From the NCBI RefSeq assembly GCF_000336675.1, contig NZ_AOMB01000010.1, forward strand, positions 82,006-118,233: a DNA stretch of 36,228 nt, given 5' to 3'. A model generated the notes under the pieces. The model saw only the letters and a list, made by a program, of their open reading frames with translations, made no database searches and was not told the origin of the DNA. The translations under genes and the position numbers were made by a program. Below are positions 22,581 to 27,391 of the stretch, one piece after another; the first letter of the stretch is position 1; every line of letters starts with the position of its first letter. The stretch is from Halococcus hamelinensis 100A6. Lineage in GTDB: Archaea; Halobacteriota; Halobacteria; Halobacteriales; Halococcaceae.

Positions 22581-24218
22581 TCAGGTGTCCGTCAGCAGTC
22601 GCCGGAGCACGTTCCCGTAGGCCGGGCGGGTGATCAGGACCCCGATGAGCACGCCGACGATGGTGACGATGGCGAAGCCGCGGAGGTCACCCAACGAAAG
22701 CACCGCGAGCGGGCTCATCGCGATGATCGTCGTGGCGGCGGCCGCGCCGATGACCCAGAAGGCCCGCCGGAAGCGGCTCTGGAACACCCTCCCGGTCTTG
22801 ACCTCGCTCTGGAGGATCTCGTCGGCGATGATCACGAGGTCGTCCACACCCGTCCCTATCACCGCGATGAATCCCGCGATGTGCGAGAGGTCGAGCGCCA
22901 GCCCGACCGCCGAGGAGAACCCGAGGAGGATGAACACCTCCGCGAGCGCGGTGATCACCATCGGGATCGCCACCCGGAGTTCGCGATAGCGGACGAACAC
23001 GACCCCCGCGACCGCGAGCACCGCGACCAGCCCCGTGACGAGCGAGAGCCCCTTGAACCGCTGGGCGACGCTCGGCAGGATGTACTGGCTCGTGCCCTGG
23101 TCGAAGTTCAGCGGCGCGGGCAGCGCCCCCGCCTGGAGGTCGACCTGGAGGTTCTGTGCCTCCGAGGCGTTCCCTGCCGACGTCTGATAGCCAGGGTCGT
23201 TGACGAAGCTTCCGGTGGCGAACTGCCGGGCGAGCCCCTGGGTCACGCTCGCGGCGTAGACCACTTCGCCGTCGCGCACCGTCAGCAGACAGTGCCCGCC
23301 CCCGCCCGTCTCGAAGTTACAGGTCCTGACCTGGCCCTGTCGACTGGAGGCGTTCGCGGCGTCGGCGAAGCCGTAGCGCTGCATCGCCTGGGTGAACGGC
23401 CGGGCGGCCTGCTCGGTGAGCGTCACCGGCACGATGGGTTGGCCCTGCTGGTCCCGCTGGACGGTCCCAACCGACTGGAAGCCGTCCTGACTCTGGAGGA
23501 CGGTGACGTTACAGGTGTTCGCTCCACCTTCGCCTCCCCCACCGCCGCTCCCGTTGCCACCGACCGGGCCCTCACAGTACGAGGGGGTCCGGTTCCCCTC
23601 GACGGTGAAGTACGCCACCGTCTGGACCTGGCCCTGGTCGGCCACCAGGTCCCTGACTTCCGAGCGGTTCTGGTTCGGGACCTCGATCTGGATGTAACTC
23701 TGATCGCCCGAGGACACAGTTTGAACGGTGCCGCCGGTGAGCCCCGACTCGCTGATCTTGTTCTCGAGTACCTCGACGGCGCTCTCGTCGGTCTCCTCGG
23801 TCACGCCGGTCCGGATGTCGTCCCGGGTGGTGTTGTAACCGGCCCGCTGGAGCGCGCTCGCGAACTGCCCCTGTGAGACGTTCTCCGAGAACACCTCGAC
23901 GGTCGCCGACTCGTTGCCCACCCTCACCTGGACGTCGGTCGGCGAGACACCGAGGTCCTCCGCCACCGACCCGGTGAGGTTGGCCTGCTGGTTCGGGGGC
24001 ACGTTCACGTTCTCGGCGGTGAGACCCACCAGAGGCGCGCGGATTCGAGTGCCACCGGAGAGTTCGAGGCCGAACTGGAGGTTGGTGGGACCGCTCGTGG
24101 CGTTCGTCGCGGTGGCGTTGCCGCCGTCGTCGACGCCGAAGCCCGGCACGAACAGCGCCAGCCCGGCGACGACGACGAACACCACGAGCAGGACGATCCG
24201 CCAGTTATCGCGTATCAT
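22581..24218 (-). CDS. secD: Preprotein translocase subunit SecD
   Basis: RND-type membrane protein that, with SecF, uses the ion gradient to assist Sec-dependent export. It has 545 residues: one N-terminal helix (IVLLVVFVVVAGLALFVPGFG), a large extracytoplasmic domain beginning with the FGLELSGGTRIRAPL motif typical of SecD D1, and five C-terminal helices containing AGFIAVIGTGVDDLVIIADE (conserved helix with Asp). A glycine/serine-rich loop (GGNGSGGGGGEGG) lies mid-domain. Its ATG overlaps the secF stop (ATGA), so the two are coupled. Confidence 0.96.
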   Translation of the reverse strand: MIRDNWRIVLLVVFVVVAGLALFVPGFGVDDGGNATATNATSGPTNLQFGLELSGGTRIRAPLVGLTAENVNVPPNQQANLTGSVAEDLGVSPTDVQVRVGNESATVEVFSENVSQGQFASALQRAGYNTTRDDIRTGVTEETDESAVEVLENKISESGLTGGTVQTVSSGDQSYIQIEVPNQNRSEVRDLVADQGQVQTVAYFTVEGNRTPSYCEGPVGGNGSGGGGGEGGANTCNVTVLQSQDGFQSVGTVQRDQQGQPIVPVTLTEQAARPFTQAMQRYGFADAANASSRQGQVRTCNFETGGGGHCLLTVRDGEVVYAASVTQGLARQFATGSFVNDPGYQTSAGNASEAQNLQVDLQAGALPAPLNFDQGTSQYILPSVAQRFKGLSLVTGLVAVLAVAGVVFVRYRELRVAIPMVITALAEVFILLGFSSAVGLALDLSHIAGFIAVIGTGVDDLVIIADEILQSEVKTGRVFQSRFRRAFWVIGAAAATTIIAMSPLAVLSLGDLRGFAIVTIVGVLIGVLITRPAYGNVLRRLLTDT

Positions 24219-25078
24219 CGTGCGACCCCCTCGTACATGTACCAGCGAAGCAGGCTGACGTTGAGGAGATAGGTGTTCATCAGGTCGGTGATGAGTCCCA
24301 TCACGAGGATCGTGCCGACCTCCGGCAGGAGCGGGATCCCGAGCACGAAGTCGGAGGCGACGACCGCCATCACCGCCATCGCGGCGATCGAGCTCAGTGT
24401 CATCGTCACCCCCGTGCGGCGCGCACGATACGTGCTCTCGTAGAAGTCACCCCGCCGCCGGAGGACGTGGTTGTTGAGCAGGATGTCCGAGTCGACGCTG
24501 TAGCCGATCAGCATCAGGAGTGCGGCGACGGTCCCGAGCGAGAGCTTGATCCCGAAGAGGTTCATCAGCGCGAGCGGGATCACGATGTCCGAGAACGCCG
24601 AGGCGATCACCGCGATCGAGGGGATGAAGGTCCGAAAGAGCGCGAACACGAGGAGCGCCATCCCGGCGAACGCCGCGATCAGCCCGATGACGCCCGTCTG
24701 CTGGGCTCCCGCACCGAAGTTCGCGGAGGTGGCCTGGACGGAGTCCACCTGGTAGCCAGCGGACTGGGCGGCGTTGGTGAGCGCACCGGTGTTCGTCGAC
24801 TGGAAGGTGACGATGTAGGTGTTGCCGCCCGCGGTCGGCGTGACGGAGGTCGGCTGGGTCGGGAAGGCCTCCTCGATCTGGGTCTGTGAGGCACCGGTCG
24901 AGACCTGGACCTCGGTCCCGCCGGTGAAGTCGATGCCGGGGGTCACCGGCGCGCCGGTGGCGAGGAACCAGCCGCCGAGAACACAGAGCGCGAGAACGAG
25001 CACCGCCAGCGGAATCGCGGCGAGCTGGCGGTCGGTGTACCGGGTGTAATCGAGGTCCGGTACGTCGAACGCGACCAT
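24215..25078 (-). CDS. secF: Preprotein translocase subunit SecF
   Basis: Partner of SecD, 287 residues from the ATG at 25078. The hallmark PGIDFTGGTEVQV lies after the first helix, and ALLMLIGYSVDSDILLNNHV is the conserved helix 4 segment. The extended frame upstream to 25228 is not used: its residues are arginine-rich with no conservation, and an AGTTTATTC box on the minus strand (near 25101-25109) sits about 25-30 bases before 25078. Order secF-secD, as in other haloarchaea. Confidence 0.96.
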   Translation of the reverse strand: MVAFDVPDLDYTRYTDRQLAAIPLAVLVLALCVLGGWFLATGAPVTPGIDFTGGTEVQVSTGASQTQIEEAFPTQPTSVTPTAGGNTYIVTFQSTNTGALTNAAQSAGYQVDSVQATSANFGAGAQQTGVIGLIAAFAGMALLVFALFRTFIPSIAVIASAFSDIVIPLALMNLFGIKLSLGTVAALLMLIGYSVDSDILLNNHVLRRRGDFYESTYRARRTGVTMTLSSIAAMAVMAVVASDFVLGIPLLPEVGTILVMGLITDLMNTYLLNVSLLRWYMYEGVAR

Positions 25079-25151: not shown

Positions 25152-26869
25152 TCAGCGGCGTCGAAGCGCCACCAGTCCGGCCGCGACGACCGCGATCGCC
25201 GCCGGCAACGCGCCGAACCCGGGTCCATCCTCCGTCGTGGTTTCGGTTCCGCCGACGACCGCCCCGTCGCTCCCGTTCGTCGCCGTCGACGCGCCGGTCG
25301 CCGACGTGGTCGTCTCGGTAGCGGTCGGTGACGGGGTAGCGGTTGCGGTCGTCGTCGGCGTCACGGTGGCGGTCGGTGTCATCGTTGCGGTCGGTGTCGC
25401 CGTCGCCGTTCGTGTCGCCGTTTCGGTGCGCGTTGCGGTCGGTGTCGCCGTCTGCGTCGCGGTCGGTGTCGCTGTCGCGGTCGGTGTCGCCGTCCGAGTC
25501 ACGGGTTCGCCGTTTGCGACCTCACCGAACGAACCCGGACCGACCTCGCGACCGTCGAGGTAGACCCTCGCGTCGCCGTCGAGTCGGAAGCCAGTGATGT
25601 TGCCACGAACGAGATAGGCGTCGCCGCCACCGCCGAGGCGACCATCGACCCGACCGTCCGAGACCGTGTCGACGTCGGTGTCGATCGTCACCGCGTCGTC
25701 GTCGATGGGCGCGCCGTGGCTCTCACCGCTGCGCTCGACGGTTCCATCGTGGGTGAACGCGTAGGTGACTTTGTCCTCCGCCGACCCGCCGACGATGACC
25801 AGCGAGCTGGCTTCCTCCATTCGATCCGACCCGCTTACCGAGACGTTCAGACTGTAGGGAACGAAGCCACCGACCGCTTCCGGGTCGTACTCGGGAACCG
25901 GTCGCACGCTGACGTAGTACGTCCGGCTCGCTTCGACGGTCGTGTTCGCGACTGCGACGGTTTTCGATTCCACCCCCGTCTTCCGGGTCTCGTTGCTCCG
26001 GAACGGACCGCTTTCGGACGCATCACCGGCATAGTCGACGTTGTACGTCCGACTGACCCGCTCGCCCTCACCATCGAGAACGTCGACGACGAGATTCCCC
26101 GGGTTGTCCGTCGGCAGGTCCCCGAGTTCGACGGTGGCGGTGACCTCGCCGTCGGTGGTGGGTTCGACGGCGAAGCGATCGGTGTCGTTGCCCGTGATGG
26201 TCCCGTCGACCGGGCCGTCGTCGATCGCGAGCGCACTGTCGGCATCGTCGTTCGGCTCGAACGGGTCCGGGTCCGCGATCCCGATGCCGAAGTCGTACCA
26301 GTTACTGCCCTCGATACCACCGCTCCCGTTGACCTTGAAGTAGTAGGTCCCGGTCTCCTCGAGCGTGGTTCCGGTCGTGAAGACGTCCCCGATCCCGGAG
26401 CCGGCCGTCGCGACGACCGCCCCGCTCGGACCGTAGAGCGTTCCCTCCGCTGGCGTCATGTCGTAGCGCCCCGATGGGAGGCGACCGGTCCCCTGCGAAT
26501 AGATGTTTATCGACTGGCCCTCCGTGGCGTCGAACGAGTAGAAGTCCACGTCGGGGTCGGTGACGTTTCCCTCGCCGCCGGCGTCTGGTTGATGCTGCCG
26601 GAGATCGTCCCTCCGACGACCCCCTCGTTCCGTCCGGGGATGAGGTCCGTAAGCGGCGTCGCCGTCGAACGGTCGTCGTTGGGTTCGCTGTCGTTGGTCA
26701 CGCCGTTCCAATCGGTCTGTTGGGCGGCCACCGACCCCAGTTCGTGACTCGGTCGCTGGTCGGGTCCGGCCGCCTGGACGACGCCACCACCGTAGCCCAC
26801 GCTCGCGACCACCACGATCACCAGGGCGACCTGTAGACTTCGCCGCACGAAAGCGCTCGGAATCCCCAT
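25152..26869 (-). pseudogene. PPC-domain surface glycoprotein with PGF-CTERM anchor, frameshifted
   Basis: The gene is split by a one-base loss. The first part, from the ATG at 26869, has a signal peptide (RRSLQVALVIVVVASVGYGG) and the start of a PPC-like domain (SEPNDDRSTATPL, GTISGSINQ). After about 26585 the homologous reading continues in the next frame (GGEGNVTDPDVDFYSFDATE), then a second PPC-like unit (DPFEPNDDADSALAI), a region of beta-rich sequence, a Thr/Pro-rich stalk of about 70 residues, and a C-terminal PGFGALPAAIAVVAAGLVAL + RRR, the PGF-CTERM signal processed by archaeosortase. Restoring one base gives 572 residues. It could be a true pseudogene, an assembly error, or a -1 frameshift site; no slippery heptamer is visible. 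Confidence 0.8.
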
Positions 26870-26926
26870 TTCTCTCTCGTCGGTCACGTCATCCTGGCAT
26901 AAGCTTTCAGGTCCGCCTCCGCCGGT

Positions 26927-27391
26927 TCAGGGCAGATATCGAACCGAAACCACGCCCGCCTCGGCGTCGCTGCGCACCTCCACGCGGTTCACACCGAGTC
27001 GGGCCGCCCGGACCAGCGTCGCCTCGTCGTCGAGCACGTCGGTCACCGCGTCCGCGACCCGTTCCGGGGGAAGCGTGAGCACGTGGATCTCGCCGATACC
27101 GGCGCGTTCGCGGGTCGTCACGTCGCCCTCGTCCCCCTCGGTTGCGAGTTCGCGTTCCTGGCTCGTCGGCGGCTCCTCGCTCTCGCCGGTCGTCAGCGGT
27201 CGTCGCTCCTCGATATCCACGAGCTCCCACGTGACGCCGAGTTCGTCGTTCGCGACCGTGGCGTCGAGGGCGTCGTTCGCGTCGAGGCCGGGGTTCCCGT
27301 CGAGCGTGTGGACCTGGCCGTCGTCGGCGTCCTTCAACACCGCCGACGCCGCGTCGGCGTGGGTCACGAGGAACGTGCTCTGCTTTTCCAT
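26927..27391 (-). CDS. Conserved haloarchaeal protein (possibly DUF5812)
   Basis: A 154-residue acidic protein starting MEKQSTFLVTHADAASAVLKD, without signal peptide or membrane segment. The N-terminal third (FLVTHAD, VHTLDGN) looks like a small conserved fold. The central region (LTTGESEEPPTSQERELATE) is probably disordered. The C-terminal part (IHVLTLPPERVADAVTDVL, RAARLGVNRVEVRSDAE) forms a second conserved block. I believe this is a haloarchaea-specific family of unknown function; the DUF number is from memory and is uncertain. It follows the membrane protein at 27435 on the same strand after a 43-base gap. Confidence 0.7.
   Translation of the reverse strand: MEKQSTFLVTHADAASAVLKDADDGQVHTLDGNPGLDANDALDATVANDELGVTWELVDIEERRPLTTGESEEPPTSQERELATEGDEGDVTTRERAGIGEIHVLTLPPERVADAVTDVLDDEATLVRAARLGVNRVEVRSDAEAGVVSVRYLP

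Follow-up and report, generated by a model that had tools for sequence, protein, structure and literature searches.

The secF gene of Halococcus hamelinensis 100A6 is preceded by a surface protein gene that appears to be cut in two by a single base. We asked whether the cut is real, and whether it reflects a mutation, a fault of the draft assembly or a working feature of the gene. The stretch of DNA analyzed here, referred to as the window, comprises 36,228 nucleotides (G000:C10:82006-118233) of a 3.42-Mb draft genome in 46 contigs (G000).

Layout of the split gene

The first reading frame of the gene starts with a GTG at 26887 or an ATG at 26869 and encodes the signal peptide and N-terminal portion of a surface protein of the PPC type. 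It proceeds through the residues GTISGSINQ and a few more, continues into out-of-frame codons, and ends at a TAA at 26509-26507. The second frame contains ...GNVTDPDVDFYSFDATEGQ... and extends through the PGF-CTERM end, with no stop before the one at 25152. The features of the gene and its neighbors are listed in Table 1.

TABLE 1 Split gene, its domains and its neighbors (window positions)
Feature	Position	Strand	Evidence or remark
5' part of split gene: signal peptide, start of extracellular region, out-of-frame codons	26507..26887	-	87% to G006 residues 1-111
3' part of split gene, second frame to stop	25152..26573	-	90% to G006 residues 103-397
One-base gap versus intact G006 gene	26574..26575	-	blastn alignment; net -1 lone indel, C10:108579-108580
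PPC domain (PF04151), begins just past lesion	26325..26552	-	30.2 bits, cut-off 25.9 (whole-genome search)
Conserved unnamed module (ASSLVIVGG...GRVDGRLGGGGDAYLV...VYLDGREV)	25552..25811	-	Common to short lipoprotein-like paralogs elsewhere
Thr-rich stalk, imperfect tandem repeats	25281..25499	-	Sequence and repeat reading
PGF-CTERM sorting tail	25155..25238	-	TIGR04126 29.1 bits, cut-off 24.5 (whole-genome search)
DUF5812 protein, upstream neighbor	26927..27391	-	PF19129, 193 bits
secF, downstream neighbor	24215..25078	-	PF02355; open in 18/18 family genomes
secD	22581..24218	-	PF02355

Scanned alone, P0002 scored 25.2 bits with PF04151, slightly under the cut-off of 25.9, and 23.6 bits with TIGR04126, under the cut-off of 24.5. 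Profile scans found no peptidase domain in the window protein and no Pfam match in the module region. The module, recognizable by GRLGGGGDAY, also occurs at G000:C22:27843-28090 and at loci L012, L016, L018, and L045-L047, and the proteins that carry it elsewhere in the genus are short and lipoprotein-like. The Thr-rich stalk and NxS/T motifs suggest that the surface protein may be a glycoprotein. The archaeosortase ArtA (TIGR04125) is encoded in the same genome, at 319.7 bits against a cut-off of 75. That genome holds 13 other PGF-CTERM open reading frames (ORFs), each with an in-frame signal sequence by our own reading, and its PGF-CTERM genes are therefore not generally split.

Comparison with an intact ortholog

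A genome of the same genus, G006, served as the intact reference. The G006 ortholog is a single frame of 570 amino acids, in which the signal peptide and the PGF-CTERM tail share the frame that they do not share in the window. The region around the gene is approximately 92% identical and largely collinear between the two genomes, and within the gene 1,899 of 1,901 query bases (1-1899) align by blastn at 86% identity. Before the stalk (before about 25515), the coding alignment contains two gaps of 3 nucleotides and one of 1 nucleotide, the last lying between 26574 and 26575 with the window as the shorter side. Both halves of the window gene match one G006 protein that is in a single frame there, the residue spans in Table 1 being those of a 400-residue query, which makes the split more than chance. 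A family search likewise returned the window gene as two matches in two frames, and none of the listed matches in other genomes contained a stop. Relative to intact orthologs the reading frame is broken, as in a frameshift pseudogene. Read from the assembled sequences, the one-base split relative to the intact ortholog is confirmed as real.

This bears out the original prediction of a single-base lesion splitting a PGF-CTERM, PPC-type surface protein, with motifs kept on either side; both flanks are indeed conserved. A lesion had been placed at 26584-26585, and there is a one-base lesion thereabouts, but the aligned gap is some 10 bp away, so that the first frame runs a few residues beyond SINQ. 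The 572 residues foreseen for the mended protein agree, as a matter of arithmetic only, with the length that one added base would give when the count begins at the ATG.

Copies of the gene next to secDF in the genus

Copies linked to secDF were counted by synteny with secF and by their printed reading frames in ten genomes of the genus. Fourteen copies were found: one each in G000, G001, G002 (Halococcus morrhuae DSM 1307), G003, G006, G008, and G009 (H. thailandensis JCM 13552), two each in G005 and G007, and three in G004. In the last three genomes, the two or three copies stand in tandem upstream of secF. Eleven of the 14 read as intact, with a signal-like start and a PGF-CTERM tail joined by a single open frame, and three are broken. 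Among aligned sequences, TIGR04126 matches 9 of 10 members and PF04151 matches all 10 relatives. None of the other copies is split at the place of the window's lesion, and no stop was found in the adjacent secF in any of 18 family genomes. No loci related to P0002 were found in the 57 genome-contig stretches searched, and tblastn returned no plasmid matches.

The three broken copies differ in the kind of damage: a frameshift in G000, a 67-nucleotide loss of the tail in G008, and a multiply deleted remnant of 65 codons in G001. G008 is a metagenome-assembled genome (MAG), Halobacteriales archaeon SW_9_67_24, that is 72% complete in 200 contigs. At its locus (L025, about 2934-2970), the tail is 26 nucleotides long versus 93 in G001 and G006, the loss shifts the frame, and the alignment shows the copy without a PGF-CTERM tail; in a draft MAG this deletion is possibly an assembly fault. 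The G001 remnant (L044 1468-1749, minus strand), located between the DUF5812 gene and secF, has lost its signal peptide along with most of the protein body and keeps the PGF-CTERM tail. Its pieces follow the order of the G008 locus: the upstream gene's end comes first, then the promoter with the start, a small part of the PPC region, and finally the flank downstream. In a secF tree of 15 genomes, from which a motif filter had dropped 3 of 18 rows (L099-L101), G001 and G008 are sisters (100/99), and G000 and G006 are also sisters. Although G001 is sister to G008, it keeps the tail that G008 lost, which argues for separate events there, and since all three lesions differ we read them as three events.

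Age of the lesion and selection on the gene

Silent divergence (dS) and omega were estimated between G000 and G006, with 92 orthologs as the yardstick. Over the first ~345 codons dS is 0.07 to 0.12, against an ortholog median of 0.216, and it rises to 0.58 in the module and 1.19 in the stalk and is 0.31 at the tail. Silent divergence is therefore a mosaic within the gene (25155-26887), low in the first 345 codons and high in the module and stalk, a pattern that suggests recombination among copies. The lesion sits in the little-diverged part, where silent differences are few, and would accordingly be young, if real.

Omega before the lesion is 0.61, from 14 changes only, and exceeds that of all 92 orthologs (maximum, 0.571); after the lesion it is 0.26, also from few changes, with an ortholog median of 0.131. 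These values would fit either a fast-evolving gene or relaxed constraint. The split gene has accumulated no further stops or frameshifts, which says little given that only 2.3% of single changes create a stop and about 0.6 would be expected.

A probable recent loss of function and its alternatives

The reading we favor, at a probability of roughly 0.65, is that a one-base deletion recently inactivated the gene, at a locus that tends to decay. A gene loss of this kind would be ordinary biology, and a lone one-base frameshift in one draft genome is by itself ordinary too. On this view, the deletion arose recently in a Halococcus species and broke a gene that encodes a PPC-type surface protein, secreted and anchored by ArtA. 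A ribosome beginning at the normal start would make the signal peptide and about 90 more residues, followed by off-frame residues and a stop. Such a truncated product would have no PPC domain, stalk, or PGF-CTERM anchor, and the protein would thus be lost from the surface. The base would then be absent from the living cell, the product presumably non-functional, and the loss tolerated. Two other members of the genus broke their own copies independently, which marks the locus as decay-prone. The original prediction had offered three explanations, a recent change, an assembly error, and a regulated switch, and the first of these has the best support.

A less probable alternative is that the cell carries an intact gene, one base of which was lost from the draft assembly within a GC-rich stretch. 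The lesion is confined to a single genome, a draft of 46 contigs; the 50 bases at the site are 70% GC; the gene shows no other damage; and sequencing errors typically show up as a lone frameshift in a single genome. An excerpt of the GeneTack study (PMC3711429) states the expectation that singletons validated by BLASTp are mostly sequencing errors, and this expectation also favors error. Against it, the site is not a homopolymer, the longest run in the frame 1 part being 5 bases, and two relatives have decayed copies at the same locus. Nor was a second clear lone frameshift seen in G000 when contigs C10 and C22 were surveyed against G006 over 235,394 aligned bases, although this count is a lower bound. 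The survey gave 116 uncompensated indel clusters, 70 of them lone, and 16 of these 70 passed a codon-position filter. By eye, one of the 16 was a clear in-gene frameshift (C22:36454) and another was ambiguous (C22:27796). The count is a lower bound in that the filter missed the lesion site itself, where few substitutions lie nearby; a looser filter was too permissive, letting through too many shadow ORFs. The C22:36454 case, compared with G006:C1, is a one-base difference inside a 317-amino-acid ORF; it breaks the frame in G006, whereas the G000 ORF is intact. A protein frameshift scan returned mostly 5'-extension candidates and excluded the G006 gene (ORF under the GC3 limit). All 11 rows with an in-frame stop fall within the query ORF's first quarter, as would be expected if the starts had been called too far upstream. 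The G000 assembly does not look error-ridden. A single frameshift in G000 cannot tell mutation from error, and what tips the balance toward mutation is that 2 of the 9 other genus genomes decayed at this locus, that secF is stop-free in 18 of 18 genomes, and that the 13 other PGF-CTERM ORFs read as unsplit.

Readings in which the split gene still works fare far worse. Phase variation or programmed -1 frameshifting would give the full-length product in a subset of cells or only at certain times, and the gene does encode a surface protein, a class that is often phase-variable according to an excerpt of PMC3711429. There is also precedent in archaea, as part of another report (PMC8211752) describes -1 frameshifting in an archaeal gene and its suggestion for viruses of halophilic archaea. 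No in-frame X-XXY-YYZ heptamer and no run longer than 5 occurs between the start and the frame 1 stop, however; the tandem arrays found between 25100 and 27000 are in the stalk and at 25666-25793, with none at the site; and 11 of the 14 copies at the locus run unsplit. A repeat search for units longer than 3 bases found no direct-repeat copy over the lesion. With no heptamer, no repeat at the site, and no conservation of the split, programmed frameshifting and phase variation were rejected, and the regulated switch of the original prediction is left without support as the least probable of the readings. Scarcely better is the notion that the two frames each yield a working protein, the N-terminal one short and secreted and the C-terminal one made by a restart. 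Possible restart codons of frame 2, GTG 26549 and ATG 26459, do lie near the frame 1 stop, but a protein begun there would lack a signal peptide and hence have a useless PGF-CTERM tail, and no relative has the split arrangement.

A broader version of the favored loss of function is speculative and, in our view, improbable. The secDF-linked locus would be a birth-and-death hotspot, with tandem expansion in G004, G005, and G007 and repeated independent inactivation in G000, G001, and G008, driven by selection, for example, to escape viruses for which the protein is a target. Recombination among copies at such a hotspot would be in keeping with the mosaic divergence seen within the gene between G000 and G006.

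Relation to known systems and significance

The window gene resembles the haloarchaeal PGF-CTERM/ArtA proteins in its TIGR04126-type tail, Thr-rich stalk, signal peptide, and accompanying ArtA gene, and it differs from them in that the signal peptide and tail are in different frames. With secreted proteins of the PPC type (PF04151) it shares a PPC domain above the cut-off in the whole-genome search; unlike them, it has no peptidase domain that we could find and carries the unnamed GGGGDAY module after the PPC-like part. As with the frameshift pseudogenes described as singletons in the GeneTack excerpt (PMC3711429), the frameshift is alone, homologs are intact, and there is no recoding signal or repeat, but here two relatives have independent breaks at the same locus. 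The -1 programmed frameshift of fucA1 in Saccharolobus (Sulfolobus) solfataricus, as treated in part of PMC8211752, is likewise an archaeal gene split by a -1 shift, and the window gene differs from it in the absence of a slippery heptamer.

The envelope of Halococcus, as a section of PMC13321033 describes it, is a sulfated heteropolysaccharide that replaces the protein S-layer of most haloarchaea, and its anchored surface proteins are therefore of some interest. If the base is truly absent, the window would add a young gene loss to a surface protein locus that has been broken at least two times elsewhere in the genus, and Halococcus would be a place to ask why such surface proteins come and go.
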